Source: Syncephalis plumigaleata
Taxonomy: Eukaryota; Zoopagomycota; Zoopagomycetes; Zoopagales; Piptocephalidaceae
Reading direction: 5' to 3'
Length of the DNA stretch: 64,000 bases
NCBI GenBank assembly: GCA_025201365.1
Contig: JAIXMF010000001.1
Coordinates: 1,798,001 to 1,862,000, forward strand
Part shown: one piece after another, positions 17,168-63,831 of the stretch
Numbering within the stretch: the stretch's first letter is position 1
Layout of the letters: every line of letters begins with the position of its first letter
Notes under the pieces: generated by a model
What the model was told of the DNA's origin: nothing
What the model saw: only the letters and a program-made list of their open reading frames with translations
The model's database searches: none
Program-made: the position numbers and the translations under genes

Positions 17168-18612
17168 TTAGTAGTCATCTTCATCATAGTCATCCTCCTC
17201 ATCATAGTCATCTTCATCCTCATAGTCATCGTAGTCATCCTCATCTCATAGTCGTCGTAGTCATCCTCATCATCATAGTCGCCTCCATTGTTGTTATAGC
17301 ACCCTTACTCTGCTGTTCATACCAGTCACGACCAGCATGGGTAGCACGATGAATTGCCAAACAACCATAGTATTCGACAGTTGTCTCTGTAGACGAGTAT
17401 GGGCTACGCTTATATTTTTTAGACGTGTCATTGGACTTTTTATAATTTGTGGAAGTTGGTGCAGGTGAACTGTAAGATTTGGTGCTAGTGGCGGTCGATT
17501 TAGATGACACTGAACCCTGAGAACTAGTAGTTTTGGTGGCAGTAGGCGTGGTCGTGCTATGCTTATACGTGCTACTAGGTGAAGGCGCAGGCTTAGAGAC
17601 AGGACATAATCCTCCAATGTACAATGTCTTGCCATCCTTGTAGCCGAGGGTTACCGTCACCGAGGTATCGTAGGCCGTATGAACGATGGCAAGCAGCTTG
17701 CCATTCGGTCGAAGTTTAGTGATCTCGCTGTGTCCCTCACGTAGAACGAATAGTGCACCGACTTTGTCGGCACGAATAGTCCTGGTCTCGGAGGCATCAT
17801 TGCTGTACGAGTCGCCAAACTGGTAGAACAACGTCTTGCCACTAACTTTACCGGTGCCGCTGTTCAAATTGTAGCGCCAAATCTTGTTATAGGTCGATGC
17901 CGACGTCTTCACCAACTCGGACACGTAAAGATACTTGCCACTGTGATCCACCTCAATACCGCGAGTAGGTCCCATGGTGTCCAAGAGAGTTGTTTTGCCA
18001 TTCTTGTCGCAAAGCCACACGGTACCGCATTGCCACCCTCGGTAGTCCTACCGGAAAGGTAAACGTAATTGCCATTAGGCGATACGGCTAGATCGGCCAG
18101 CACGGGGAACTTGGAATTTTGGCAAAGAACCTTACGAGCACCTTTGCCATAATCGTCCGCTCTAAATGTCGAGGGTGCGTTGGATGATGTCCAGCTAAGC
18201 TGAAGAACACGACGATTAGCCTTGTCCGTGAGCAGGGCACGTCCTCCGGCAGCCTTGTTAGCATTGGGAACAATGCGCATGCCGGTGAAGTAGGTGGACG
18301 ACTCGGAATCGGTGTAGAACGTGTCAAACTTGTTGGACGCCGTGTTAATACGTCCGATGGTGTTGATTGCGCGGTTAGAATTACGTCCGGATATGACCGA
18401 GTCAATACCATAGACGTTGCCTTGCTTATCGACGGCAAAGCCATTGACCTTGTCGCCAAACCAAACACCCGACGTATTCAATGGACCACGAGCCACAAGC
18501 TTCTTGCTACCGTTATTGTAAGCATGGCCAACGGTTTTCACATCTGCTGATGCAATAACGCTTGTTGTATGATTAGGAAAACAGATGCTATACTAACTGT
18601 ATTGAATAGCAT
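17168..18612 (-). CDS. secreted SMP-30/NHL-like beta-propeller, copy 1
   Basis: A predicted secreted propeller, perhaps a lactonase-like or carbohydrate-active protein; substrate unknown. The signal peptide is MLFNTVSIASVFLIIQQ. Propeller blades show repeated motifs: VWFGDKVNGFAVDKQGNVYG, TGMRIVPNANKAAGGRALL, LADLAVSPNGNYVYLSGRT and GIEVDHSGKYLYVSE. After the propeller comes a Ser/Thr/Lys-rich linker and an Asp/Tyr/Glu-rich tail (DYDDEDDYDDY type) that is unique among the three paralogues. One-base breaks occur near 18560, 18015 and 17247; protein similarity to the copies at 20.9-19.7 and 25.7-24.5 kb continues across the first two. Confidence 0.72.
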
Positions 18613-24541: not shown

Positions 24542-25729
24542 TTATTGTTGCAATTGAACCCATGTGCGACCACGAGTTAAAGCGGGAGATTTGTATAAAC
24601 AAGCACTGGGTGTGGTGCTGCTCTTTTGCGTGTCGCATGGTCCGGCAATGTACATGGTCATGCCGTTGGGACCGCCAAAGCTAATGTCGGCAACACGTTT
24701 GAACGGCGTCTTGATACGTGATACTGCCTCGCCCTTTGGTGAGATAACCGTGATTTCGCTGTTGCTCATACGAGTCACATAGAGTAAACCTTCCTCGTTC
24801 GATCTTATGCCGTTAACATCGATATGGCCAGTTTTATCGAGTGCCTTAAAGTCAACGAATAGTTCCTTGTCGCCGGTGGGCAGACCGGTATTCAAATCCA
24901 GATGATAACGCCAGATACGATTGTTGCTTGGTACCCAGCCGCCCGTCGCTTCGGACACGTAAAGGTAGTCCTCGTGCGTGCTAAGTTCGATGCCATTCGT
25001 ACGACCCATGAAGTCGAGGCGTGTCATATTGCCGGTTCTAGTGTCGCAGAACCAAAGATCACCCTCGCCCGATTCCATAGTGGCGCGTAAACCGCTAAGA
25101 TAGACGAAACGACCACGCGCCGCCACGGCTAGATCATTTGGTTGGAGCATTTCCGAGTTCTCGCAAACAACTCGGCGTGCCGCATTGGCATTATCCTTCA
25201 AGCTGATGGTGGCGGGAATGATGCTAGAACTCCACACCACTTCGATGACACGATGATTGACGACATCCGTCATTAATACGCCACCGTTAGCGTTTGCGGG
25301 ACGAAAGAATCGCATACCAGTGATGTAGGCGGTCTTATCCGTATCCTCGTAAAACATGGTAGCATTGTTGCTTATGGCATCGATACGACCAATCGTATTA
25401 AGTGGATATTTGCCGTTGGCATCTGGTTTGCCAAAGTTATTGGCGTATATGTTGCCGCCCTTATCGACGGCCAATCCCTCGATATCGCCACCGAACCATG
25501 CCTGATCGAGTTGATGGCTTACTTCGTGGAATTTGTAAGTCTCGTCGAAACTAGCCGCGGGAGATAGAAGATTATCAACGAGAGGAAGGTCCTTCTCGAG
25601 CGGTAAGGATAATGCTGTTAGCGAAACTGGCTCGTCGATTAGTGGAATAGCACCAATGGAGAATACTTGTGATAAAAGAATCAAAGTGGAGATTAATTGT
25701 TGCGTGTTATTAGCGATAAAAGAGTACAT
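24542..25729 (-). CDS. secreted SMP-30/NHL-like beta-propeller, copy 3 (intact)
   Basis: The only one of three paralogues open throughout (395 aa). The signal peptide lies within the first 30 residues (QLISTLILLSQVFSIGAIPL). Blades contain AWFGGDIEGLAVDKGGNIYA, GMRFFRPANANGGVLMTDVV, NDLAVAARGRFVYLSGLRAT, DLWFCDTRTGNMTRLDFMGR, GIELSTHEDYLYVSEATGGW and ISFGGPNGMTMYIAGPC. The order and spacing fit a six-bladed SMP-30/gluconolactonase-like propeller. The catalytic metal ligands cannot be assigned by eye, so enzymatic activity is unproven. It serves as a ruler for the breaks in copies 1 and 2. Confidence 0.8.
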   Translation of the reverse strand: MYSFIANNTQQLISTLILLSQVFSIGAIPLIDEPVSLTALSLPLEKDLPLVDNLLSPAASFDETYKFHEVSHQLDQAWFGGDIEGLAVDKGGNIYANNFGKPDANGKYPLNTIGRIDAISNNATMFYEDTDKTAYITGMRFFRPANANGGVLMTDVVNHRVIEVVWSSSIIPATISLKDNANAARRVVCENSEMLQPNDLAVAARGRFVYLSGLRATMESGEGDLWFCDTRTGNMTRLDFMGRTNGIELSTHEDYLYVSEATGGWVPSNNRIWRYHLDLNTGLPTGDKELFVDFKALDKTGHIDVNGIRSNEEGLLYVTRMSNSEITVISPKGEAVSRIKTPFKRVADISFGGPNGMTMYIAGPCDTQKSSTTPSACLYKSPALTRGRTWVQLQQ

Positions 25730-37493: not shown

Positions 37494-40400
37494 CTAAAGG
37501 CTCCACGAGGGGGCTACCATCTTGAGGTAATACTCCGTTCGGAATACTACCTTGTTGATGGAGTCCCAGGAAGTAGGTTCACTCGGCGAGGAGTGAGAGG
37601 AGCCAGTATGCGGCCGATCCGCATTCTGGCTGGGTCTGGGGCCAGTCAGTTGGCCTGGGGGGTTCGCTGGGGTCTGGTTGATGGATTTCCAGGTGCCTAT
37701 GATGCGCTTTACCTGCTTGCATCTTGGGATCCATATTCTTCTCCATACGATGTCTAGTGCTTTTGTTGACATATGATGTATGACGCTTGTTCTTTCTTCT
37801 TTTGTTAAACCTTTTTGCGTCATGTCTAGTTGAAGCTCCTCACTCGGCCAGCCCAGCAGGTAGCCTACATCGTGGAGGGGATGTAGTGGGGTGGCTCTGT
37901 GCGCTGTTTCTGCCACTTTCACCAGTCGAGGGTGGATTGACCTTTCCGCCCTTTCCCTGTTGATTCTGCTTATAATCCTCATTCCTTCCTGGAATATTTC
38001 GAATTTCGCATTTCTTTCCACTTCCCCCTCGTTGACGTCACAGTTGACTATATGCCTCCAATTTTCGCTTTCCCCTTTGGTACACCTACAGCATACGTCC
38101 GTAGTGTATTTTTCCTTGCTCCATAGGTGCTGTCTAGCTAAGGTAGGTAACTGACCCGTCGCTAGCTTGATCGCGAACTCCCTCTTGTGCTGCGCTCTTC
38201 TCAATGCTCTTTCATCTTCACTTCTGTCCCTTTGCGCTACCACGTTCATCTCTTGCTCCAATCTGGTCCTCAGCGACGGGTGGTGCTTGAGTATATGCTG
38301 CTTGAGTGTTCTTGCGTGTCGCGCCTTGCTTTGTTTCTTGATCAGTTGTCGTGGTGGAAGCAATGTGTTCAGCCCTGACGCCAGCAGATCGTACTGGTGG
38401 ACCTTTCCTGGCACTGTATTCAGTGTCCATCTAGGCACCTGATTTGTGGTGACGGCTGCCGCTTTCGCCTCCATGTCTGCCATCTCGTTTCCCACTGTGC
38501 CTATATGCGCCCTAGTCCATTCTATTTCTGTGCTTGCTTCTCGTCTCGCGACTCTATCTGCTATCAACTCCCATATTTTGTATGTGGGCGTTGCTCTTCT
38601 TTTCGCTCTGGACCAGGGCACCGCTTCCGTGACATACTGCTTCCACCAGGCCACCGAGGTCATGGAGTCCGTCATGATCTTGATTGCTATGCTGTTTGGC
38701 GCGCATGCTATCGCGTGGGCTATCGCCATAGCTTCGAGCATATCTGAGTGGCAGTGTGGACCTGCGTACCTTCCCGTTGCTACTGCCACCTTCGCGTTTC
38801 CTCTCATAACTATCGCTGCGTAGCCTCCTTCTTTGTCTGGGCCAGTTGGATTTGTGACTGATCCATCTGTCCATATAAGCACCGTCTCGCTGTCTTGGAT
38901 CTCCGACCAGTTGTACTGTCTGCCTTGCGCGTCTGTGGACCACGCCGCTAGGTTTTCCTCGGTGAATGGTAGCAGCGTACTGTACTCCTCTCGATCTGCC
39001 AGTCTAGCTGCTATGGCCATACTCTTGGCTTTAGATGCAAGTTTGGGCCACCTTTCTTCCAGTTTCTTGTACCATTTCGGTGCGCCTCCCTGCCTTTCAT
39101 TTCGATTTGTGATGGCATTGTAGCTCGCTAGCCTGGGTGTATCGAGTCCGTCAGTCAGTGCTATGTCTTTCATCTCCACTAGGTCGAACCTCTCCGCTGC
39201 TTCTCTAACGTCTCTTCGAGTCGTTGGAGTCGCTGCGTCTTCTAACAAAATATCATCTATCCTCTTGGATTGTTCGAGTTCGTCCCCTAGTACCACCTTC
39301 AGCTCCCTCGTATGCAGTCGGTATGCCAGGTGAATAGCGTACACTCTATTTCTATCGCGTGTTTCCGTGTAACTGTTGTATATCGATCTGATACTGTTGA
39401 CAAGACTGCATGCTGCTTCTTCTTGTGCTCTTGCTGATTCACCTAGCATACCTGGGCTATCCAACCTCCTCATTAAGTCCGCTATTTGGGAAGTGTCCAT
39501 AGCGTCTCTCACGTTGGTCAGATTGAATCCTTGCGGCGCCCATAGCAATACGTTTGGCATAGACCTAGCCATGTGTGCTTTGCGTTTGATTAGCGTGAGC
39601 CAGCTTCTATCCAGCTCGTCGCACTGTGAGTCCGACAGCGGTAGAGTAGCTGCTTTGTGAGTAATCGCCGGTATTATCACTGAGTTGATGATATATATCG
39701 CAATCTCGTGACTGATCTCCTTCCGCCTTATAATGCTGCAAAGCCCTTTAACTGATTGATGGATGATTCTGAGTGGCTCTTTGCTCTTGCCGTCCAAGGA
39801 CAGCCAGCAGCCGAGTAGTCGGAAAGGTATTGTCGGTGGCGCCACCGTCTGTACCAGACCCGCTTCTCCTTCCGCCAATCGAATTTTCGGTAGTGATTCC
39901 GCTACTGAGTTGCCTAGAGGATCTTTCGCCGTATGAATCGTTTTGTTGCAATTCACCTCGATATCGTGTAGTTCGAAGAAGGATCTACAGATATCTGCCA
40001 GCCTTTGCAAGGTGTCACGATCTTCTGCTACTAGAGTTAGGTCATCTGCGAAGGCTCCATATGCTACTATCTTCTGTGTAGTGCCCGGTTGTCGTTCTCT
40101 CATCGCGTATCCTATTTTGGATTCATCGAGTTTGCTGAGTAGCGTGTCGTAGAATATCAGCCATAACGTGGGTGAGTTCACTTCTCCCTGGTCCAAGCCG
40201 CACTCAGGGTGGTGGGCTTCTGTTTGACCGTGCGCTGTAATAACCGAAGCTGTTCTGCTGTTAAATATGTTCTCTAGCAGAGTTATGAACTCTTCCGGCA
40301 CTTTTATTCTTCGTAGCGAGCAGGCTAGGCTTTGCCATGAGACCGAGTCGTATGCTCGTTTCACATCCAGCATGAGCACCTCTAGTCCTTTCTTGTAGCA

Positions 40401-42587
40401 GATCGAATCATCCATCACTGATCTCAGAATTTGTACAAAGTCGGTAGCTTGGTTCCCCCTAGTGAAGCCGAAGTTCCCTCCTCGCAGTACATGATTCTTC
40501 TCCAGTATGTTTTGTAAGCGCTTCGTCATGGATATCGAGAATAGTTTGCGCATCGTCTCTAGCAGGGTGATTGGCCGCAGCTGCGCCATATCTCCACACC
40601 AGTCTGTCACTTTCGGGATGGGTATGATTTTTCCGTGTTTCCAAGTTTGCGGTATGTCGCTGCGTTGTAAACACGTCGTTATCATAGCTGCCATGATTCT
40701 ATGGATTCGCTTGCTGGCTTGTTTCAACATCTCGTTTGTGACTCCCGACTCTCCTGGCGCTTTAGCGGAGGGAAGTTGACGAAGCGTGGCCTCCAGCTCC
40801 TCCACCGACACGTGGTCCATGAGATTATCGTATATACTTTCGTGAACGTGCGGCATTGGCGCGTAGGCGTCTCTCCACCTAGGGTGTGTCATTGGGTCCG
40901 TACCGTTTCTAATCGACATCCACTGTATAAAGTAATCTCGAACCCGCTGACGTACTTCCTCCGGTCTATCCTCGATCTCATGACTGCTCGTTTGCACGAC
41001 CGTGATGGTTTGCAGAGGTTTCCCTCTTTCCAATATGTTCGTCAAGGTTCTCTTCATGTCCGTATGGAAGTTGAAGTTTCTTGCTGTAACTGCCTTTTGA
41101 ATCTTGTCAGCTACCTCTCTTTTCCTTGCACGACTATATTGGTTGTGCAATCTCGTCCTCAGCCTTCTAATCTCTCCTAGGATGATCCCACCATGACTGT
41201 TCGCCGATTCGGCCAATAGCTCCACGCTAGGATGTTGCGCGGCTATTCTTCTGATCTCGCCTCCTATCCTTCTATCTGATCCACCTTTGCGCAGGATCCT
41301 TGCTAGCTTCCTGGTTACTTGTAGCGTGGGATTTAACATCATAGGTTTGTTGGGCTTCCTTTTGCGGACGGTCGTGAACGGTAAGGTGTCCTCGGCACAT
41401 TTCATCAGGTGAGTGGAGAGCTTGTTCCATAGCTCGCTGATGTAAGGCATATTCGAGTGTGGTAGGTTCGGTTGAGTACGCGTAAATCTCTCTGCTTCTT
41501 CCATCATGCTGCACCAGTCCTTGTCTGTCGCCTCAGAGTAGTTACTCCATTGCGTTTCAGTCACACTCTTGTTGTTCAGTATCTTTCTAGGTTGGGTAAC
41601 TCTGTCCTCGGCCTGCGGGAACATCATAGAGGTGGACAGCTCTAATAGGATGGGCTGGTGAGATCCAGGTATACCTTCGTTTATGTAACTGGTGTCGTCA
41701 GAGGTATCTAGCGCGTTCTCTATGCCCACTCCTGTTACCTGCTCCAAGAGGTTTGCCGATACCAGGAATAGGTCGAGCCGTGCCTTCGAAGTAGATGTGG
41801 AACCGATCATCGTGTTGGTGAATTGTCGGACATCGGGGAATCGATATCGCCATGCGTCAATGAGCTGTCGTTGATCAAGTAAGTACTCTAGTAGTTGCGT
41901 TTCTGCTCTACTACTCGCCGGAGCAGTAAAGTCCGGTTCATCTCCTTCATGTTGCGTGGATGGCAACGCGTGGTGACGTACCGAGCTCCTGTCAATCCAT
42001 GGTTGTGGTGTTGCGTTAAAGTCGCCTGCGACTATCGTTTCGGCTCTCTTCTCACGGGCTTTGTTCAACCAGACTTTTAGGGTATTGTACATGTTGTTTG
42101 CTGTCCCGGCATCTCTTCTCCCCTGATCTGTGGGATATAGGAGCCCGACAATCAACAGACCTCTACCGCGAAAAGCCATACGTACTCCTAGCATTCTCCT
42201 ATCTACTTTATAGATCTCCTGGATGTGCTTCGTCCATTCCTTCTTCAGCAGCATCGCCACTCCATGATAATTTGGTGTGTCGTCGTCTCCGGCTCCCGCG
42301 GTGATAACTGAGTATCTCCTCTGGATGTCCGGTCGGTACGGTATGCTTCTTTCTAATGCGCTCGACCAGCGAGTCTCAGTCAATATTATACAGTCTATAT
42401 CTAGCGGTTCTAGTGCGTTGAGTATTAAGCTCAGCTTAGTCTCGTTCGCCGCACTTGTGACGTTCCAATGTACTATACGCATCTTCTTCGGCCCGTCTCT
42501 TCGTATTCGGTGAAAGTTCGAATACGTGCCAACGTACGGCCATTCTATAATTTCGTTTGGGTTTTCGGGTATAATTGTATTATTCAT
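37494..42587 (-). CDS. LINE ORF2: endonuclease, reverse transcriptase, RNase H
   Basis: A 1697-aa polyprotein. The endonuclease (residues about 30-340) shows IVHWNVTSAANETKL, CIILTETRWS, IVAGDFNATPQPW and GSHQPILLEL. The reverse transcriptase (about 600-1000) shows AKAPGESGVTNEMLK, LRPITLLETMRKLF, LMLDVKRAYDSVSW, GLDQGEVNSPTLWL and the catalytic box AFADDLTLVAED. RNase H (about 1270-1410) shows LIWTDGSVTNPTG, CHSDMLEAMAIAHA, IKIMTDSMTSVAWW and WTRAHIGTVGNEMADMEAKA, so all four acidic positions are present. A C-terminal zinc-binding motif is CCRCTKGESENWRHIVNC. The start is 43 nt after the ORF1 stop, which suggests reinitiation. Confidence 0.93.
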   Translation of the reverse strand: MNNTIIPENPNEIIEWPYVGTYSNFHRIRRDGPKKMRIVHWNVTSAANETKLSLILNALEPLDIDCIILTETRWSSALERSIPYRPDIQRRYSVITAGAGDDDTPNYHGVAMLLKKEWTKHIQEIYKVDRRMLGVRMAFRGRGLLIVGLLYPTDQGRRDAGTANNMYNTLKVWLNKAREKRAETIVAGDFNATPQPWIDRSSVRHHALPSTQHEGDEPDFTAPASSRAETQLLEYLLDQRQLIDAWRYRFPDVRQFTNTMIGSTSTSKARLDLFLVSANLLEQVTGVGIENALDTSDDTSYINEGIPGSHQPILLELSTSMMFPQAEDRVTQPRKILNNKSVTETQWSNYSEATDKDWCSMMEEAERFTRTQPNLPHSNMPYISELWNKLSTHLMKCAEDTLPFTTVRKRKPNKPMMLNPTLQVTRKLARILRKGGSDRRIGGEIRRIAAQHPSVELLAESANSHGGIILGEIRRLRTRLHNQYSRARKREVADKIQKAVTARNFNFHTDMKRTLTNILERGKPLQTITVVQTSSHEIEDRPEEVRQRVRDYFIQWMSIRNGTDPMTHPRWRDAYAPMPHVHESIYDNLMDHVSVEELEATLRQLPSAKAPGESGVTNEMLKQASKRIHRIMAAMITTCLQRSDIPQTWKHGKIIPIPKVTDWCGDMAQLRPITLLETMRKLFSISMTKRLQNILEKNHVLRGGNFGFTRGNQATDFVQILRSVMDDSICYKKGLEVLMLDVKRAYDSVSWQSLACSLRRIKVPEEFITLLENIFNSRTASVITAHGQTEAHHPECGLDQGEVNSPTLWLIFYDTLLSKLDESKIGYAMRERQPGTTQKIVAYGAFADDLTLVAEDRDTLQRLADICRSFFELHDIEVNCNKTIHTAKDPLGNSVAESLPKIRLAEGEAGLVQTVAPPTIPFRLLGCWLSLDGKSKEPLRIIHQSVKGLCSIIRRKEISHEIAIYIINSVIIPAITHKAATLPLSDSQCDELDRSWLTLIKRKAHMARSMPNVLLWAPQGFNLTNVRDAMDTSQIADLMRRLDSPGMLGESARAQEEAACSLVNSIRSIYNSYTETRDRNRVYAIHLAYRLHTRELKVVLGDELEQSKRIDDILLEDAATPTTRRDVREAAERFDLVEMKDIALTDGLDTPRLASYNAITNRNERQGGAPKWYKKLEERWPKLASKAKSMAIAARLADREEYSTLLPFTEENLAAWSTDAQGRQYNWSEIQDSETVLIWTDGSVTNPTGPDKEGGYAAIVMRGNAKVAVATGRYAGPHCHSDMLEAMAIAHAIACAPNSIAIKIMTDSMTSVAWWKQYVTEAVPWSRAKRRATPTYKIWELIADRVARREASTEIEWTRAHIGTVGNEMADMEAKAAAVTTNQVPRWTLNTVPGKVHQYDLLASGLNTLLPPRQLIKKQSKARHARTLKQHILKHHPSLRTRLEQEMNVVAQRDRSEDERALRRAQHKREFAIKLATGQLPTLARQHLWSKEKYTTDVCCRCTKGESENWRHIVNCDVNEGEVERNAKFEIFQEGMRIISRINRERAERSIHPRLVKVAETAHRATPLHPLHDVGYLLGWPSEELQLDMTQKGLTKEERTSVIHHMSTKALDIVWRRIWIPRCKQVKRIIGTWKSINQTPANPPGQLTGPRPSQNADRPHTGSSHSSPSEPTSWDSINKVVFRTEYYLKMVAPSWSL

Positions 42588-42630
42588 TATATATTATGTT
42601 ATATATAATATTCTAGATATATCCTGTATA

Positions 42631-43827
42631 TTATTGACTGGTTTGACCCAGTCCCATACTTCTTGTAGTAACCATGTGTATCTTTGGTGTTCGGTCTGGA
42701 TCGTCGTTGTCGTCGTCGTCGGCGTTGGCGTTGTCGTCGTCGTCAAATTCGTTTGCTGATCCATCTGGTATGTTTTCTTGCTGTTCATGTGAGTTGCTGT
42801 CATCATAGTCCATCTCATCGTCGGTTCCCTCGCGTTCTTCTGCGTTGTTGTTCTCTTGATCCTCTTCACTGCTCATACTCGCTGGTTGCTCGTCGTTTTC
42901 GTCGACTGGCGCTGTCTTCTGCTGTCTGGGTTTAGCTGGCTCCAGACTGTTGCCGGTTAGCATAGCTAGGCCATCGACGTTTACATCACAGAAATCGCGC
43001 TTCTTTCCGTGTGTGTAACCGCCCGTACCTTGCTCTCCTACCGCCACTGGTTTCCCAGTTCTCTGGGGACCATGAGGGGTGGGTGAGGTGCTAACTGCTT
43101 CTTCATTCTCTTCTGGCACATTCCGTTGTTGCGTGTCGTCTTCATTCGTCGTATCCACTCTCTTGCGAAGCCACTCGCTTCCGGCTTGCTTCTCTTCCGT
43201 CGCTCGCGGCGGACTCCTCATGCTTTCGCTCGCGGGGCAGAATTTCGCAATGTGTCCCACAGTATGACACTTATAACACGCGTCGTTTCTAAATACTTTA
43301 ATGTAAGAAGTATTCAACTTTATTGCCTTAGGTATGTTTGCTACAATCCCTTCAAATTTGCAAATCGCGGTTGAGGTAAAGTAATGGTTATCACCATACC
43401 TGCGAGTTACTCGTCTGACAGACAGTACTCTCGCTGCTCCTCCCAGGCTCTGCTGCATTATCCTAGCGACCTCCTCCTCCTCGTCACTAGCGTCCAAACC
43501 TACAAGACGTAGGTTTACCGGGGTGATTCCTTCGAATCCACGGATTTCCAGCTTCTTGCCGTTCACTAGTAGACCCTCTTTGACTAAGGTTCTCGCTTGA
43601 TCTTGGCTTTTCGTGCTGATAATGTATTCGCCAGCGGCTGTGTCGTGGCTAGCTCTCCAATGGGTCTTGCCGAGCTTATTATCCATGGCTGATAGTATCT
43701 CTACCAGGTTGGTCGTAATCGGGACTGCGATGCAGTGGCTCTTTATACGCTTTTCTTTTAGCTGCTGCTGAGCTGCTTCTGCTTCTGCTCTGGCTGCCGC
43801 TACAGCGTATGGGGTCGGTTGTTCCAT
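42631..43827 (-). CDS. LINE ORF1: nucleic-acid-binding protein
   Basis: 398 aa, from MEQPTPYAVAAARAEAEAAQ at 43827. The open frame extends upstream into flanking host DNA, but the element boundary at 43903 makes this the first element-encoded Met. It has an RRM-like central part (EILSAMDNKLGKTHWRASHD, LRLVGLDASDEEEEVARIMQ), one CCHC knuckle (CYKCHTVGHIAKFC) and an acidic Asp/Asn-rich C-terminus. ORF1 proteins coat the element RNA. It is intact. Confidence 0.9.
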   Translation of the reverse strand: MEQPTPYAVAAARAEAEAAQQQLKEKRIKSHCIAVPITTNLVEILSAMDNKLGKTHWRASHDTAAGEYIISTKSQDQARTLVKEGLLVNGKKLEIRGFEGITPVNLRLVGLDASDEEEEVARIMQQSLGGAARVLSVRRVTRRYGDNHYFTSTAICKFEGIVANIPKAIKLNTSYIKVFRNDACYKCHTVGHIAKFCPASESMRSPPRATEEKQAGSEWLRKRVDTTNEDDTQQRNVPEENEEAVSTSPTPHGPQRTGKPVAVGEQGTGGYTHGKKRDFCDVNVDGLAMLTGNSLEPAKPRQQKTAPVDENDEQPASMSSEEDQENNNAEEREGTDDEMDYDDSNSHEQQENIPDGSANEFDDDDNANADDDDNDDPDRTPKIHMVTTRSMGLGQTSQ

Positions 43828-43903
43828 GTTGTACTGGTTAACTTTGATTTTTCCTTTTTCTTTTTCTTTGAAAAAATAAAATGGGAGAAAGAGCTTTTTT
43901 TTC

Positions 43904-43920
43904 GGACTATCATTATTATT
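43904..43920. repeat. target-site duplication, 5' flank of the LINE
   Basis: Exact copy of the 17 bp at 37347-37363. Confidence 0.9.
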
Positions 43921-44618
43921 ATACATAGAGAGTTGGAAAAAGCCTGTAATTAACGCCATATTATTTATTTTTCATCTTTGTATGATTCTTGCTTTCTTCT
44001 TTCCTTTGCTTCTTTCTTTCTTTCTTTTGCTTCTTCTTTCAACTCTTCGTATTTAACGACATTGCATTTGTAAACTGACACTGACATACCATAATTGTTA
44101 TTGTGCTGTCATTGTTCGATCTACGACAATAGTTAGATCGACGTCTTCATCTTTACTTTTATTTCACCTTCGTTAACGTAGAGTGTCTTTTCCTATTCAT
44201 TTCTCTTTCTCTCGTTCTCTCTCTCTTTATCAAGCTCTTTCTTTTTCCATTATTAACCCCTTAGTTAAAAACTGCATGTGCATATTCACCAGTTCTCACA
44301 AAGCAGTAACAACCAGCGGCTAGAACGGCTACTAGCTAGTCTTCTTTCATCTCTCATACTCTCTATTATTCCATAGTGGTCATCTGTCTTTGGCTTGTGT
44401 CTAGCTGTTTTGATTCTTCGTGCCATTCATTTACCGCTCGACTTATCCAACAGCTGCATACGCTACAATCCGCTGTTCCCTTATACTTGTTTGACAATCA
44501 GGGGAAATTGCTTGCATCAGTAATACAGCAGCACGTTCAATCTCACGTCGACACCACCACTACTTTTCACTAGCAATACTCACTACCCTACCCTTCTGTT
44601 CACCTTAGTGACTCGATC
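43921..44618. other. intergenic region, pyrimidine-rich promoter
   Basis: CT-rich and TTTC-rich tracts (44000-44250) precede the HAPSTR1-like gene. No gene is supported; the open frame at 44376 lacks recognisable content. Confidence 0.5.
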
Positions 44619-46520: not shown

Positions 46521-47483
46521 ATGACTCAAGCTATTCCATTCAAGATCTTCTACAAGGGAACTGGACGTCTTCTCTATGTCGACAACGGTATCGATTGGAA
46601 CGGTATGGCTAATAAAATAATTCTTTTATTCCCTGAAGCTGGCAATAGTGCAGAGGATATTCAACTTTTTTACAAGGACAACGACGGTAAACCAATGGTA
46701 TTTGATACATCAGACGAATTGAATAAGATAATTCAAAGGATAAGTGAAGGAGAAGAGCAGCTCCAATTCCTTGTATGGAACAAGAATCATAAACATAAGC
46801 ATCATCATAGTCATTATAGTCATCATCATAGTCATCATTTAAATCCAAACCATTATGTTCATGGCTTTCCATGCCAGTTGATTCCAGGTAGTAGTCATCA
46901 TTACAATCATGGTCATCATTATCATCATGGTCATCATAACTGTCACAATGGACTTGGTACTACATTATTCTATGACTATGAAGATAACAAACAACACAAT
47001 GAGATAACAACGAATAGCGAACAAGATGACTCAAATGTATCTGACAATGACAATACTATGAATTGTGAAAACAAACATAATACTAGTAATAAGGATGATC
47101 ATGATTTAGAATCATGGGATAAAGATATTTGGATGCAAGAAACTTGTAATGATAATTCATTGCCATGTAGACCAAGTTTACCATTGTTTACAGGTCATCA
47201 TCATCATCATCATCATCATCCATTCCATGGACATGGACGTGGCGGCCATCATCATCATTATCGTCATCACCAACATGGACCATGTACCAGACCATATCAG
47301 CAAGGTCATCATCATCACCAGCATCATCATGGCGCACCACACGAACATGCAAATGGTTTCATGAATTGTAACAGAGAAGCCGCTATTCATATGTTTGGAC
47401 CATTCAATCATAGACATGGACACTTTCCACATCGCGGTGGATTCGGAATGCATATTGGACGAGGTGGATTCGGTCATTGCTAG
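46521..47483 (+). CDS. PB1-domain protein with long histidine-rich tail
   Basis: 320 aa, intronless. Residues about 6-90 read as a PB1-like fold: IPFKIFYKGTGRLLYVDNG, NKIILLFPEAGNSAEDIQLF and the acidic OPCA-like motif YKDNDGKPMVFDTSDEL. The remainder is very rich in His, with HHHSHYSHHHSHH and HHHHHHHHPFHGHGRGG blocks alternating with Gly/Asn, and a middle acidic Asn/Asp segment. PB1 mediates hetero-oligomerisation in signalling. The His tail could bind Zn, Ni or Cu, or drive condensation (inference). No partner is evident nearby. Its codon pattern CAT-CAT-CAT makes it a natural slippage site. Confidence 0.65.
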   Translation: MTQAIPFKIFYKGTGRLLYVDNGIDWNGMANKIILLFPEAGNSAEDIQLFYKDNDGKPMVFDTSDELNKIIQRISEGEEQLQFLVWNKNHKHKHHHSHYSHHHSHHLNPNHYVHGFPCQLIPGSSHHYNHGHHYHHGHHNCHNGLGTTLFYDYEDNKQHNEITTNSEQDDSNVSDNDNTMNCENKHNTSNKDDHDLESWDKDIWMQETCNDNSLPCRPSLPLFTGHHHHHHHHPFHGHGRGGHHHHYRHHQHGPCTRPYQQGHHHHQHHHGAPHEHANGFMNCNREAAIHMFGPFNHRHGHFPHRGGFGMHIGRGGFGHC

Positions 47484-47861: not shown

Positions 47862-50082
47862 TTATTGCTTACTCTTGTTATCCACCTCGACATAACGCTC
47901 ACAAATGCCATAGCTTGCCAGTATTCGTTTGCCTTTGCTTACATGATCACCCTGTACCATGATCTCTCGTGCATCCTTTTTACCAGCTACTGGTCCAACT
48001 ATCGTGTAAGATGTCAGTTGTTAGTATCAGCTAGTTTCATCTACATGGATAATCAACCAATGGGATAATCAACTACATTTGTATCACTAGTGTAATGATG
48101 AATACGACATATTTATTCAATAAATGAGAGAATGATCTTGTAGATATACTTGTTGTTGTACCAAGGAATAATGACTTGAATGGCGTGGACACAAAAGGAT
48201 CTTGCACCAATACATTTTTGACTTGAATACCTATAATATCTACTCGATGATGTCCTTGTCTTGCTCTATAATCGTAATGGATTAGTATGAGTATGATTAT
48301 TTGTTGAATTATTACTTACCGCTTATTTCTATCATTCAATCAATGTACGTTGTATTGTGATTAGCATACCGTAAAGGGCGATTGAAATCTTGACTTACAA
48401 GCTGTTATACACAACCATGCATGAATCATGTACCATAGCGTGGTTAGTACATCGATTCATTACGATCACGATGGTAACTTACGTCCTACCATACAGGAAC
48501 AGGTGCGGATCATGTGCCATATCGTAGTTAGTACTCATTCAGTACAATCTGAATGATTACTTACACCCTATCATACGCAAGCATATGCGGATCATGTGCC
48601 ATATCATAATTAGTACTCATTCAGTACAATCCGCACGGTAACTTACGCTCTATCATACACAAGCATAAGTGAATCATGTGTCATATCGTAGTTAGTACTC
48701 ATTCAGTACAACCCGAATGGTAGCTTACATCCTATCATACACAAACATACGGGAATCATGTGTCATATCGTAGTTAGCACTCATTCAGTACAATCCAAAT
48801 GGCAACTTACAAACTGTTATACGCAAGCATACGTGAATCATGTGTCATATCGTAGTTAGCACTCATTCAGTACAATCCAAATGATTACTTACGGTCTATC
48901 ATACGCAAGCATATGTGAATCATATGTCATATCGTAGTTAGTACTCATTCAGTATACTTCGTGCGGTAACTTACCTTCTATCATACGCAAGCACACGGGA
49001 ATCATGTGTCATATCGTAGTTAGCACATCCATAAATCATGGCCAGAATGATTACTTACGGCCTATCATACGCAAGCATATGCGGATCATGTGCCATACTG
49101 TAGTTAGTACTCATTCAGTACAATCCAAATGATAACTTACGGTCTATCATACGCAAGCATATGCAGGGCATGTGTTATATCGTAATTAGTACTCATTCAG
49201 TATACTTCGTGCGGTAACTTACCTTCTATCATACGCAAGCATACGCAAGCATACGGGAATCATGTGTCATATCATGGTTAGCGCCTCACTCATTCCAGCT
49301 AGAACGGTAACTTACGGGCTCTTGAAATGGTAATCACATATAATTTTGATTTACACTGCAATTAGCACAGTACACATTACAGTCAATGGTATAGCTTACC
49401 AGCACTCACGCTTGCTTCGACAGCTAGAATAAAAATTACGATGTGATTAGCATGTCAAAACAACCATCTGATATACATGGACTTACGAGCTATCGATAAT
49501 CATCAATGGACAATGAAACAATAGACTACGATTAGTACATCAATCGACATGGCATAGTAGTCATACGTACCACCTATTTGTGGAATAATTCCATTTGGAT
49601 GGTTAGCTCATTGTATGGTATGGTCAGCATGGGATGACTACTACTTACGGCCTATTGATCCATGTACCGTGTCGATAGGGCAGTATGATTAGTAGCATGT
49701 CAAGTGGTTTATTTATTTATCGGCAAACCTACGTTCGACTATCGGAATAGACACACACACACACAGGAGGATTGAGCATGATTATAATACAGTTAGCACA
49801 TTGAATGGGATCATTATTACACTGACAACATACCAACTATTGACGGAATAAATGTACAAATAGTGATACAGCATGGTTAATACACGGGACATTGTGGTCA
49901 AATGGTAGACTTGCCAGCTATCGAGCAATCATTAATGAGTCAGCTAGTGTCCATTATTATCATTGTTCTCGTTGTTCCTATGACATACCACGACGGGCCA
50001 ATGCGGGCTTGGCTTCAACGGCGACCAGACTGGCGACAGCGACAACGGCGATGGCAATAGCGAGAACGGCAGAGAACTTCAT
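47862..50082 (-). CDS. secreted cysteine-rich protein encoded by about 23 exons, 17 of them 3 nt (micro-exon gene)
   Basis: Exon 1 (50082-49989) encodes a signal peptide (MKFSAVLAIAIAVVAVASLV) and KPALARR. Exons 2-21 are 3,3,6,3,3,3,24, then thirteen minus-one triplets, then 9 nt: CTG 49917, TTG 49836, TCGAAC 49738, GCC 49651, GTG 49573, CTC 49489, 24 nt 49423-49400, CCC 49318, AAG 49225, ACC 49143, GCC 49061, AAG 48978, ACC 48895, TTT 48813, GAT 48731, AGC 48649, GGT 48567, GAC 48485, CTT 48401, and 48328-48320. Exons 22 (48265-48150) and 23 (47998-47862) are ordinary. Every intron (about 62-95 nt) has a GT (once GC) donor, a CTAAC/CTAAT-like branch site in nearly all, and an AG acceptor. 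Joined from exon 2, one frame is open to the stop: CCRTPCSCRSKRECC, PRPPRPLIAVTLNKRARQ, then VDIIGIQVKNVLVQDPFVS and GDHVSKGKRILASYGICERY. About 145 aa. The exon 1 phase is off by one base. No known family recognised. Confidence 0.7.
48399..49318 (-). repeat. tandem array of about eleven intron+triplet units, 82-84 bp period
   Basis: The triplet exons 49223, 49141, 49059, 48976, 48893, 48811, 48729, 48647, 48565, 48483 and 48399 are spaced 82,82,83,83,82,82,82,82,82,84 bp. The spacing 49316 to 49223 is 93 because of an internal duplication of about 10 bp (CATACGCAAG). On the minus strand each unit reads GTAAGT, about 25 nt, TACTAAC or TGCTAAC, about 40 nt ending GCGTATGATAG, then three exon bases. 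The unit bodies are near-copies, while the three exon bases differ (AAG, ACC, GCC, AAG, ACC, TTT, GAT, AGC, GGT, GAC, CTT). Confidence 0.88.
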
Positions 50083-60689: not shown

Positions 60690-61939
60690 CAGTGACTCAC
60701 ACAAGTGCCGGAATGTTTTGCATTTTTTTACATTTCCCCTCACATTTTTATAACCCTTTGTTTAACCCCATCCATATTACACAATTTAATAAAGCTTTCA
60801 ATTGTCTATCTAATGATATAAAAATAATAATATGTTAATTAATAAAATGTTTAATTTTATACACTTCAAAAATCGTGACTGCATTCCGGCAGTTGTGAGA
60901 GCAAATTCAAAAAAATTTTATTTTCTAATAAAGTTATTAATATTCTATAAACTGTTATTATTATTGTATATTATAGTTCTTGAACATACGCTGCATCGTT
61001 TACATTGCAAAAAATTTATTTTTTATTGAGTTTTTATAGTGGAAAGGTAACATGAAGGCACTATCAGAGAAGAAGGTAAAACGCGCTATTCATGAGCTTA
61101 ACGCTGGGAAAAGCGCGCGTCAAGTGGCTAAAATGCTTGATGTACACGCTTCTACGATCGATGCAATATCAAAAAAGCATCTACCGAACCGTGTGAAGTC
61201 GAAGGGGGGTAATACTGAGGTGCTCTCAGAGACGGACAAGCGCTTTGTTGTACGTGCAACGGTGAAAGAGAGGATGAAAAGCGCGGTACAAGTGCGCAAA
61301 GCACTCAAAGAACGCTTCGACATAGCTGTATCGGATGAAACAGTGCGGAGAGCGCTTAGATCCGCCGGGCTAGGGGCTGTAGAGAAAAAGAAAAAACCTC
61401 ATCTAAGGGAGGTCAATATCAGGAAGCGACTTCAATGGGCGTTGGCGCACAAGGATTGGACCGTCGCTGACTGGAGACGCGTCGTTTGGTCAGACGAAAC
61501 GAAGATAAACCGCTACAACTCCGACGGGCGCTCCTGGGTGTGGAAGCGGAGTGAGGAATCGCTTCAACCGCGTGACGTGAAAAGCACGTTCAAGCATGGC
61601 GGTGGCGGTGTGATGATTTGGAGCAGCATTTCGGCCGCTGGACCGGGCTGGCTATGCAGAATTTATGGAACAATGGATAAGGAGCTATATCAAAAGATAT
61701 TAAAAGACGAATTAGAAAAAAATATTAATTTATTAATGGAGGAACTGAACATTACTAAGGAGCAGGTCATATTTCAGCAAGACAATGACCCTAAGCATAA
61801 GGCCAAATCGACCATGGAATACTTCGATAAGCAAGCCTACACGGTCATGGAGTGGCCGCCGCAGTCTCCAGACCTCAATCCTATTGAGAATATGTGGGCT
61901 TTCGTGAAAAAGCAACTCAACGAGTATGATTCGCCACCT
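60690..61939 (+). mobile_element. Tc1-type DNA transposon, interrupted
   Basis: The left end is CAGTGACTCACACAAGTGCC at 60690, preceded by a TA (60688-60689), the usual Tc1/mariner target. Inside, at about 60880-60900, a partial inverted match (CATTCCGGCAGTTGTGAG) to this end suggests a long or subterminal inverted repeat. A transposase starts at 61052. The body is cut near 61940 by an LTR-type element, so the right end must lie beyond the window. Confidence 0.75.
61052..61939 (+). CDS. Tc1-family transposase (DD34E), 3' part displaced by insertion
   Basis: The N-terminal helix-turn-helix pair is visible (KRAIHELNAGKSARQVAKML, ETVRRALRSAGLGAVEKKKK). The catalytic domain has WSDETKINRYN, QQDNDPKHKAK and WPPQSPDLNPIENMWAFVKK; 34 residues separate the second Asp and the Glu, which is the Tc1 spacing. 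Family similarity stops after LNEYDSPPCN; the frame runs on to 62167, but that tail is foreign sequence from the inserted element. The catalytic core is complete, but the last 60 or so residues of a normal Tc1 protein are missing here. Confidence 0.85.
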
Positions 61940-62163
61940 TGCAACGCGGTAGCCCACGTTTACATTAATCCCAATTCGCGTTCCCATTTAACTATCTGTA
62001 CTACACAAAATCTTAATAAAAAGAGAGCTCCTCGCCACATTATGTGGGAGGGACACCTACGTTTTCACTTCAAAAACCCTAGCGGCAGTTATCTTTATTC
62101 AGTGTGTGCTTATACTTGTTTCAGTGGTAGCAACGGAGGATACGCAACTTCAGTCTGCGTTAA

Positions 62164-63831
62164 ATGAGCACCAGATATCAATCAGCAAGGGAACGCAGAG
62201 CCAATCAGTCACAGCAGTACCAGCGGCAGGATTCAACAGAGAATCAATCGTCAGATAATACAGTTGTCGAGCAACAATCACCACCATCGTCAGACACAGA
62301 AGTTTACTACGACACAGAGGCAGAACTTACAGTTACATACGACTCGGAAGAAGAAAATACGGCTACGACACCCCCATTAACAGGCACTAGCACGTACCGC
62401 GTCCCAAGTACACCATCATCAGAAGGATCAATCAACATCGACTTCCTCCCGGAGACTCACCGGGAATCAGACCTATCGCCTGCCCTAGATCAACGGCTAT
62501 TAACAGCGTCATCACACACATCATCACCAGTACCGCGCTCGTCGTCATCGCAATCGAACAACACCGAAATAGTAGACACGAACATGGGAGACCCAGTAGA
62601 TATTCGTGACCTCATCCGCAACCTTATGCAGGAAGCACTACAGGATATGCGTGCAACCATCGCCCACGACATGCAAACGGAGTTACAACCTATACAACAA
62701 CAGTTAAACGACGTCACAAACCCTAATGCGGCGACACACGCAACAACCGTCGATCCCGCAACACCACAACCAATCAATCACGACGCGTTAGTCGCCGCTA
62801 TCACGGCAGCAGTCAATGCTAGTAATCACGGACGTTTAGCCGGTGGCCACCGCGACTTGTGGTTATCGCCGAAGGCACCGGAATATCAAGGCCGCGACAG
62901 TGAGGTACCCTTCAATATATGGTGCAGGATGATATCGGACGAGGTCAGAATGTACGCCGATTGGACAGAGGAGCAGAAAGTGTGGGCAATCACTCGACAA
63001 TTGAAGGGTGAAGCCGCCACGTGGTATCAGTTCTATGCAGAACAGGCAGATGCCGGTCGCCCAGGTTACACGCCAATCACCACTTGGGAACAGCTGCAAG
63101 CGGCGTTACGTAACCACTTCCATCCCAGGGAGCAAACACACGTGCTGCTAACTCGATTCGACAATCTCAGACAGGATCGGCGGCCACTATCCGCGTACCT
63201 CACGGAATTCCAACAGCTGGTGATGCAACTTCCGGAACTACCCGAGGAACTCAAGATACACCGTTTCCGCAGCGGACTATCCATATCCCGCTGGCAAACA
63301 GAGTTCAACATCCGCAATCCGACCACATTGAACGAAGCCATCGAATTCGCTATGTACCTGGATTCAACACGATCCAACAACAATAGCAACAACAACAACC
63401 GCTATAGCCGACTCACCTACCAACCGCAACGCTCCGCCCAACCACTACAATACCGCGGACCGCAGCCGATGGAACTCGACGAGATGGCGTTTCAACCGGG
63501 GCCAAACGACTGTTTTAACTGTGGCCAGCCTGGTCACCGGCGTTTCGAGTGCACCAATCAGTCGAGGTGCTACAACTGTGGTCGTCACGGTCATACGACA
63601 CGCAATTGTACGCAGAATCGACCCCACGCGCACCGAGCACCCCCAGCCAACCGTCCCGCCGCCACAATGACACCTCGTCAAGCCCCCATCGCACGGGCCG
63701 GCCAACGCGCAGCTCAGCCAGCCCATCGTCGCCCGCGGCTAAATAATGTTGAGTTCGGCGAAGGTGCGGTACCAACCGCCGACATCCACGAATACGAAGC
63801 AGATGCGGAGGATTTTGCCGCCGACCAGTAA
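62164..63831 (+). CDS. gag-like protein of the LTR element
   Basis: 555 aa with a Ser/Thr/Gln-rich N-terminus, a retrotransposon gag (capsid-type) segment around residues 240-400 and two CCHC knuckles near residues 445-480 (CFNCGQPGHRRFEC, CYNCGRHGH). Two knuckles and a separate gag frame fit Ty3-like elements. The base composition is more GC-rich than the host genes around it. Treated as a resident element; no further function is assigned. Confidence 0.8.
   Translation: MSTRYQSARERRANQSQQYQRQDSTENQSSDNTVVEQQSPPSSDTEVYYDTEAELTVTYDSEEENTATTPPLTGTSTYRVPSTPSSEGSINIDFLPETHRESDLSPALDQRLLTASSHTSSPVPRSSSSQSNNTEIVDTNMGDPVDIRDLIRNLMQEALQDMRATIAHDMQTELQPIQQQLNDVTNPNAATHATTVDPATPQPINHDALVAAITAAVNASNHGRLAGGHRDLWLSPKAPEYQGRDSEVPFNIWCRMISDEVRMYADWTEEQKVWAITRQLKGEAATWYQFYAEQADAGRPGYTPITTWEQLQAALRNHFHPREQTHVLLTRFDNLRQDRRPLSAYLTEFQQLVMQLPELPEELKIHRFRSGLSISRWQTEFNIRNPTTLNEAIEFAMYLDSTRSNNNSNNNNRYSRLTYQPQRSAQPLQYRGPQPMELDEMAFQPGPNDCFNCGQPGHRRFECTNQSRCYNCGRHGHTTRNCTQNRPHAHRAPPANRPAATMTPRQAPIARAGQRAAQPAHRRPRLNNVEFGEGAVPTADIHEYEADAEDFAADQ

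Follow-up and report, generated by a model that had tools for sequence, protein, structure and literature searches.

We analysed a 64,000-nt stretch of the genome of Syncephalis plumigaleata (Zoopagomycota, Zoopagales, Piptocephalidaceae; assembly GCA_025201365.1, contig JAIXMF010000001.1, positions 1,798,001 to 1,862,000; hereafter, the window), in which the minus strand from 50082 to 47862 carries a candidate gene for a secreted precursor peptide, built largely of predicted 3-nt exons. An earlier note on this DNA had described a fungal gene for a secreted, cysteine-rich protein made from such exons; the sequence supports a gene of this kind with a secreted product, and the protein derived in that note was read in the wrong frame. 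The exon map is given below in window positions, with L numbers denoting the family loci that we compared.

49989..50082, minus strand: exon 1, 94 nt, predicted signal peptide and start of the propeptide (MKFSAVLAIAIAVVAVASLVAVEA / KPALARR plus 1 base, phase 1), donor GTATGT
49915..49917, minus strand: micro-exon 2, CTG, contiguous in the intronless paralog L071; the next intron is GC-AG, with donor GCAAGT
49834..49836, minus strand: micro-exon 3, TTG, from the parse and intronless L071
49733..49738, minus strand: micro-exon 4, TCGAAC, from the parse and intronless L071
49649..49651, minus strand: micro-exon 5, GCC, from the parse and intronless L071
49571..49573, minus strand: micro-exon 6, GTG, from the parse and intronless L071
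49487..49489, minus strand: micro-exon 7, CTC, from the parse and intronless L071
49400..49423, minus strand: exon 8, 24 nt (CTGTCGAAGCAAGCGTGAGTGCTG), putative start of the mature peptide (APVEASVSA), with a 24-nt counterpart in L051
49316..49320, minus strand: exon 9, AGCCC, 5 nt, phase-switch exon (1 to 0), with a 5-nt or 2-nt exon at the equivalent place in 20 of 21 genes
48399..49225, minus strand: eleven predicted single-codon exons, AAG ACC GCC AAG ACC TTT GAT AGC GGT GAC CTT (KTAKTFDSGDL), one per ~82-nt module
48320..48328, minus strand: terminal micro-exon, AAATAAGCG, with the last codon (K) and the in-frame stop TAA
47862..48265, minus strand: 3' exons past the stop, probably 3' untranslated region; the first starts AGCAAGACAAGG at 48265 and the last starts at about 47998

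The map agreed with the earlier note in showing a signal-peptide exon followed by 20 small exon-like gaps, and in flanking the small exons with GT donors (one GC), CTAAC/CTAAT-like branch sites and AG acceptors. The earlier note's count of 17 gaps of exactly 3 nt came down to 16, as the supposed CCC is AGCCC (49316-49320), and this 5-nt phase-switch exon contradicts the statement that all gaps are multiples of three. Exons 2-7 finish a predicted propeptide that ends in ...AVVERR, a second dibasic site. Exon 8 can be read as 24 nt through a GTAAGC donor, which keeps the frame, or as 14 nt through a GTGAGT donor, which breaks it. With the 24-nt form, the predicted product is a cysteine-free prepropeptide, MKFSAVLAIAIAVVAVASLVAVEAKPALARRAVVERRAPVEASVSAEPKTAKTFDSGDLK, ending APVEASVSAEPKTAKTFDSGDLK, and the predicted peptides downstream of its RR sites include APVEASVSAEPK and TFDSGDLK. 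The six-cysteine product proposed previously, CCRTPCSCRSKRECC, belongs to another frame; the frame derived from the signal-peptide ATG ends at the TAA in AAATAAGCG without a cysteine, and both large 3' exons, which had been thought to continue the frame, lie past that stop. Among six copies of the last 3' exon, pairwise differences by codon position numbered 57/46/44, and the single changes comprised 47 silent and 76 replacing ones. A coding role for the 3' exons was rejected on this even spread; lying after the stop and, in the last of them, lacking codon-position bias, they are probably 3' untranslated region. The codon-exon region (49225-48399) is a tandem repeat with a period of 82 nt and a higher-order period of 246 nt, corresponding to three modules.

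The 3-nt spacing between acceptors and donors was evident both in the window and across the genome. On the window's minus strand, the pattern YAG-N3-GTAAGY had 14 occurrences, 13 of them inside the micro-exon gene, compared with one on the plus strand; other YAG/GTAAGY spacings from 0 to 30 nt occurred 0-4 times each. Genome-wide, ATGATAG-NNN-GTAAGT revealed 797 sites, compared with 5 for the reversed control. When the gap between the same acceptor and donor motifs was left free at 1-12 nt, 647 matches were found versus 15 for the reversed control, with a gap of 3 in 99 of the first 100 listed. A chance origin of the spacing was rejected because of these excesses in window and genome. Across 21 genes, and with no parser used, 163 of 173 TATGATAG acceptors had GTAAGY exactly 3 nt on.

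Several queries returned numerous relatives in the same genome. The terminal-exon signature TAAGCRGTAAGTAA had 92 genome sites (3 for its reversed control), and an intronless family precursor used as a protein query gave 137 genome matches, 133 of which started at residue 1 (161 candidates, 150 scored). The stretch from promoter to exon 1 gave 42 matches including itself, at 75-92% identity, short pieces excepted (200 candidates, 40 scored), and a 246-nt piece of the array gave 171 (199 candidates, 40 scored). As judged from these matches, the window gene is one member of a large S. plumigaleata family, which the 92 terminal signatures put at roughly 90 predicted genes or more; gene numbers are approximate, as some contigs are possibly duplicate haplotypes. 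Up to 137 loci are concerned, and 21 of them were fully read, namely 20 family loci of at most 6.6 kb and the window gene. Copies and modules are mutually related, and the counts given below are thus not independent. The exact 797-site pattern was matched by 162 of the 412 parsed codon exons, and by extrapolation the genome may contain a total of about 2,000 single-codon exons. One locus, L052 (C370:3600-10200), is a near-duplicate of the window gene with an identical codon-exon run on a 42.6-kb contig, and is possibly an allele or a haplotig.

Gene models were built with a dynamic-programming parse on splice signals alone, and the reading frame was not used. One version of the parser imposed a minimum distance from branch site to AG, and a later version imposed a minimum intron of 62 nt; the latter by design stops before the short last intron, so the terminal exons were supplied by the preceding parse. 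In the typical model, exon 1 ends in ...CGTCGTG (phase 1) and is followed by a small number of exons, most of them 3, 6 or 9 nt long, a 5-nt exon, a run of 3-nt exons and a terminal exon ending TAAGC. The single 5-nt exon, which is 2 nt long in L060 and L065, switches the reading from phase 1 to phase 0, and every later triplet is then a whole codon. In 13 of the 21 genes, as counted by reading the output, this frame-blind parse returned a continuous frame that begins at the ATG and reaches the stop of the terminal micro-exon. In L061, the frame was open across 34 codon exons, and in L065 across 64, up to where the examined sequence ends. Array introns were 78-82 nt long in 377 of 448 measured. 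The deposited model P0134 (BDF22DRAFT_657452) fits L064 with 13 exons, including eight consecutive 3-nt exons that are the same as in the present parse, and it uses a different frame and a weak 913-nt first intron. On the present reading, automatic annotation misreads such genes, with P0134 as an example, and the class may have been overlooked elsewhere. Exons 3-4 of L064 are adjacent 9-nt exons, CTTAAGGCC (which yields an in-frame TAA) and CAAATCCTG, and look like alternatives.

The composition of the triplets points to their being whole codons, with one residue per exon. The 412 3-nt exons past the phase switch comprised 44 distinct triplets and no stops, compared with an expectation of 17.1 stops on base composition and of 4.3 on position-specific composition. 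The other two frames, read across the junctions, contained 3/391 and 51/391 stops. Stops were likewise absent from the 406 sites defined in the same 21 genes by the YAG-NNN-GTAAGY pattern alone. At the exact genome-wide pattern, the TRR triplets were TGG (20), TGA (1), TAA (0) and TAG (0). In the codon exons, G made up 45% of first positions, and pyrimidines 77% of third positions. Counted from the start of the exon, an in-phase TAA was present in 20 of 20 terminal exons, preceded by TGA in L056 and by TAG in L070. The choice among synonymous codons agreed with that of five ORFs (open reading frames) in the window (rho 0.39, p=0.003), which is better than the agreement of the overall triplet frequencies described below.

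Two intronless paralogs served as natural cDNAs for the pro region. One of them, L071 (C130:10791-11051), encodes the protein P0132 (BDF22DRAFT_718768, whose record is partial); the other, L072 (C149:5921-6040), shares the signal/pro region. Their proteins begin MKFSAII...SPNRIRRAVVERRAPRAEL... (L071) and MKFSAVI...NPNRIRRAIVERRAPPSHHHH... (L072). L071 carries GTGCTGTTGTCGAACGTCGTGCTCC in one piece; past the RR codons it reads GCTGTTGTCGAACGTCGTGCTCC, and the window gene, with its micro-exons joined, reads GCTGTTGTCGAACGCCGTGCTCC. When window exons 2-7 were joined (21 nt), 20 positions matched L071 and 18 matched L072, as compared by eye. The pro-region micro-exons, joined as predicted, therefore rebuild a sequence that a relative encodes unbroken. 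At the 3' side, the predicted junction TAAGCA^AACAAGACAAGG (TAAGCA^AACAAGACAAGGACATC in micro-exon genes) was similar but not identical to TAAGCAAACCAAGACAAG in L071 and TGAGCAAGACAAGGACATC in L072. Further genome matches with longer open frames suggest more intronless paralogs. The annotated or metagenome relatives P0148, P0149 and P0163 have long, quite different bodies.

The sequences around the triplets have the features of splice signals. Over 412 modules, the triplet positions carried 0.19, 0.04 and 0.24 bits of information and the neighbouring intron bases mostly more; the donor hexamer carried 1.7-2.0 bits and the acceptor AG 2.0 bits, values that are partly built in, as the parser demands AG and GT/GC. 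At the 406 pattern-defined sites, which involve no parser, AG occurred 12 times in the 34 nt before the acceptor, compared with 673 expected by shuffling; farther upstream (-75 to -42), it occurred 626 times versus 812 predicted. Parsed introns contained 72 AG versus 784, a difference that is partly built in because the parser penalises an intervening AG. A branch-like adenosine was located 40-44 nt from the exon in 375 of 448 array introns 70-90 nt long. A shared RNA structure of the array introns was rejected, since RNAalifold returned no base pair for an alignment of 40 of them.

The predicted precursors resemble secreted prepropeptides of the Kex2-processed type, having an N-terminal signal peptide and one or more dibasic sites before a variable body, as read by eye. 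The first family profile was built from an alignment of 11 of the 21 predicted precursors, the rest being near-duplicate, similar, incomplete or frame-broken, and R31 and R32 were invariant in these 11; in L067 and L068, the second RR site is missing (AVVEHYV). Past the dibasic sites, the predicted bodies are hypervariable, as in APDHHHGHHGGHH (L056), AQDPPALKAKAKAKLQQG (L053) and APQDIQALLNGANLAGDEFIKYWFASVPSNAGAAVEHILE (L060). The L066 body, ALVQVPCEDGFVRMPEFRNKCCKIMEGHNARSTVCAAEE, has four cysteines in a C..CC..C layout in an intact frame, and that of L065 has 64 codons and is rich in glycine and alanine. The predicted mature peptides include His/Gly-rich, four-cysteine, amphipathic and acidic types. 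L060, L061 and L065 may form amphipathic helices, as suggested by hydrophobic-moment maxima of 0.44-0.58, which were calculated with no control. A similarity of the bodies to retrieved family proteins was considered and rejected: 12 predicted bodies compared with 43 family proteins gave two weak matches only (E 0.31 and 0.77). Conotoxin prepropeptides likewise have a conserved signal and pro region, dibasic cleavage and a hypervariable mature peptide. The Syncephalis precursors share the signal/pro/dibasic plan and, in L066, the four-cysteine C-CC-C layout, a likeness of plan rather than of established homology; no conotoxin is known to have its mature peptide spread over exons residue by residue.

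Profile searches with the family, two in all, brought up proteins of S. plumigaleata and others whose records name no organism, mostly from JGI metagenomes, and no protein from another named species. The metagenome/ENA proteins P0139, P0142, P0144, P0146 and P0150 are homologous precursors whose ends resemble read-through of the exon-1 intron; P0139 ends in RRGTSGHGHIN, as though the exon-1 donor had been read through. This hints that the micro-exon architecture may also occur in other, environmental species.

Taken together, we interpret the window gene as a member of a large family of secreted prepropeptides, in which a conserved promoter/signal/pro region is followed by tandem intron-plus-codon modules of ~82 nt, and we give this reading a probability of about 0.8. 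In the proposed mechanism, each ~80-nt intron would be removed individually by intron definition to give a short mRNA. The product would enter the secretory pathway and be cut by signal peptidase and at Kex2-like (RR) sites, and the released mature peptide would thus be encoded one residue per exon. Gain or loss of a whole module would add or delete one residue without a frameshift, and the splice signals would be kept while the codons diverge. There is about an even chance that the mature peptides are effectors or antimicrobial peptides that work outside the cell, against or inside a host fungus, a role proposed because of the predicted secretion, the family size, the variability and the mycoparasitic lifestyle. 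One study regards Syncephalis pseudoplumigaleata as an obligate mycoparasite, and titles cited there call members of the genus mycoparasites (PMC6784888). Genomes of mycoparasitic fungi are described in another paper as depauperate in secondary-metabolite genes (PMC10386755).

Several observations weigh against the intron-plus-codon interpretation. Four of the 21 copies were not intact as read: L058 and L070 each have one 2-nt exon, L063 has no phase-switch exon, and L064 has an extra 9-nt exon with an in-frame TAA. In the window gene and L052, the unforced parse picked the 14-nt, frame-breaking form of exon 8. The frequencies of the triplets correlated weakly with the codon usage of the five window ORFs (rho 0.20, p=0.12), and the values for the other frames (0.16 and -0.40) and the reverse complement (0.22) did not clearly separate the frames. 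Stop triplets would make cryptic splice signals, which may partly explain why they are missing. The array introns are related repeats, and the uniformity of their splice signals is partly a matter of shared descent. An intronless copy of a codon-array body was not found when the bodies of L065 and L060 were queried, an empty result that proves nothing on its own; splicing of the body is thus unconfirmed by a natural cDNA, and the splicing of the array and its products are predictions from the sequence. Faster change of the micro-exons was present in only one of five close pairs (L060/L061). In the other pairs, the differences in exons and introns were 3/92 and 43/1391 (window gene/L052), 1/68 and 22/1267 (L057/L062), 5/116 and 87/2466 (L067/L068), and 4/62 and 50/979 (L054/L055).

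Comparison of close copies revealed how the modules may evolve. Within each of the pairs L067/L068 and L054/L055, the two genes are set apart by a single 83-nt module, which corresponds to one residue. In L060 and L061, whose 34 modules correspond one-to-one, 33/143 positions of small exons, 268/3020 of introns and 3/258 of donors differed (Fisher exon versus intron, p=1e-6), and 21 codons were unchanged, 1 had a silent change and 12 had residue changes. More distant pairs differed by 18-59% in exons and 12-33% in introns, with modules that are possibly not true counterparts. In the colinear modules of the five close pairs, 17 of 90 codons were changed, and 12 of these at 2-3 positions, compared with 3.8 expected by even spread (p=5e-5); at 12 of the 17 changed codons, only 3-10 of the 120 flanking nucleotides differed. 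Overall, change in codons and flanks was 34/270 versus 870/9990 (p=0.04), a gapless flank count that is inflated. When module pairs from different places were compared, 3-6 flank differences per 120 nt went with a difference at 43% of codon bases (42 pairs), and among pairs with 0-2 flank differences the codon differed in 1 of 12. The pattern could be caused by strong selection favouring new residues or by targeted exchange of codons, acting on the exon. For 260 of 351 array introns, the best match lay in another gene, and no simple tandem order was evident (18 genes, three near-duplicate genes excluded). One tentative idea, against which we think the odds lie, is a codon-cassette system, that is, a secreted-peptide arsenal held in recombinable intron-plus-codon modules in which whole codons would be added, deleted or replaced; two of the five close pairs showed no codon change, and the overall excess of codon over flank change is modest, both of which count against it.

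Other explanations of the arrays differ in how well they account for these findings. It is possible, though unlikely, that the micro-exons are optional cassettes and that combinatorial skipping yields many peptides per gene. The codon exons are symmetric, so that any subset keeps the frame, and the adjacent 9-nt exons of L064, one with a stop, look like such a choice; schistosome micro-exon genes (MEGs) alternatively splice central exons, according to a published account (PMC10526429). The donors and acceptors of the arrays are uniformly strong, however, which suggests constitutive use. A mobile, introner-like intron inserted between the codons of an intronless ancestor is a still more doubtful source of the arrays. 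Array introns are homologous repeats, intronless paralogs exist, and introner-like elements are known in fungi (PMC4457414); yet independent insertions would not land, hundreds of times over, at a spacing of exactly 3 nt and in phase 0, and the 83-nt one-module differences, like the window's 246-nt repeat of three modules, point to a codon and its intron having been duplicated together in tandem. Such elements are many similar spliceosomal introns in one genome, as in Syncephalis, and they spread to new positions in many genes, whereas the Syncephalis introns, which we examined inside the micro-exon family, appear to have been duplicated in tandem with a codon in one family.

We consider it very improbable that the array is a non-coding satellite that arose from an intron junction and is spliced out as one intron, or that the copies are pseudogenes, leaving a short secreted peptide. 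The modules are indeed tandem repeats, with 67-99% identity among the matches listed for a three-module query, they would have inherited their splice motifs, and the four copies not intact as read fit such an origin; against this, stops are avoided in the arrays and genome-wide, splice signals stay constant while triplets diverge, AG is depleted before acceptors, intronless paralogs hold the pro-region micro-exons joined, and TAA is in phase in all 20 terminal exons. The least probable alternative, that the micro-exons are used and the frame continues into both large 3' exons and yields a cysteine-rich protein, was rejected, since that frame, although open in the window copy and followed by P0134 on L064 through eight consecutive 3-nt exons and the 3' exons, needs a 14-nt exon 8 (or exon 1 left out of account and exon 9 taken as a 3-nt exon) and, in P0134, the weak 913-nt first intron, and it contains 3/391 stops versus 0/412 in phase 0 and ends in an exon without codon-position bias.

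To place the architecture among known systems, we compared it with the two that the earlier note had named, schistosome MEGs and aphid bicycle genes; the comparison held in general style, and the family does not fit the structural definition of either. Like MEGs, the Syncephalis genes form a gene family of a parasite, with predicted secreted products, a conserved signal peptide, variable bodies and many symmetric micro-exons (412 3-nt exons in the bodies of 21 genes). MEG exons measure 3-81 bp according to the abstract of the published account, and 6-81 bp, mostly 15 bp, in its text, with introns of 0.1-5 kb that are shorter at the ends (PMC10526429). In contrast, Syncephalis body exons are nearly all 3 nt, the introns are homologous and ~80 nt long, and exon plus intron form a tandem unit. 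No schistosome proteins were among the results of the two family profile searches, and no search for the MEG hydrophobic motif was made; the two organisms also belong to different kingdoms. Like the bicycle genes, the family is large and fast-evolving, encodes putative secreted effectors and is rich in exons of unusually small size, almost all of which share a phase. Bicycle genes have ~17 exons on average, internal exons nearly all in phase 2, and CYC motifs (PMC9168663), whereas the pro-region exons in Syncephalis are in phase 1 and the codon exons are in phase 0, 3 nt long and arranged in tandem modules.

Isolated tiny exons have been reported elsewhere: a 3-bp exon in Drosophila homothorax (PMC7392893) and 1-nt exons in Arabidopsis (PMC4674806) and Fusarium CYP621A (PMC12940212). 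These demonstrate that exons so short are within the reach of a spliceosome, and differ in that such exons are reported singly and not in arrays of dozens. Similarly, Trichoderma Xlr2 has a functional fungal microexon, but a single regulatory one in a transcription factor (PMC11121469), compared with the Syncephalis arrays. Among the papers listed for microexons in fungi, effectors, mycorrhiza, Syncephalis and Zoopagomycota, in part from the top entries of longer lists and with subscription papers outside the search, none described single-codon exons in tandem. Parallels are known for the general strategy of making variable secreted products from micro-exons.

The surroundings of the gene in the window were also inspected. 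A His-rich ORF of 320 aa with 3-base repeats (46521-47483, plus strand) adjoins the micro-exon gene. On the minus strand, 37494-43959 contains ORFs of 1697 and 442 aa that by eye resemble a retrotransposon lacking long terminal repeats (non-LTR; endonuclease/reverse transcriptase/RNase H and a zinc-knuckle ORF). On the plus strand, 61052-63831 contains, also by eye, a Tc1/mariner-like transposase ORF and, immediately after it, a gag-like zinc-knuckle ORF. Two SMP-30/gluconolactonase-like genes lie at 17241-18020 (identified by eye) and 24542-25729 on the minus strand, and the closest named relatives of the latter are in other Syncephalis.

If confirmed by cDNA, this gene architecture would be near the lower limit, with one amino acid per exon, dozens of such exons in succession and ~90 or more genes of one fungus built in this way. 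It would test how the spliceosome handles consecutive 3-nt exons, and the intronless and micro-exon paralogs of one precursor together would form a natural experiment on intron gain and loss. It would also mean that peptides can evolve by insertion and deletion of single residues without frameshift, and that mycoparasitic fungi may possess a hidden peptide arsenal.

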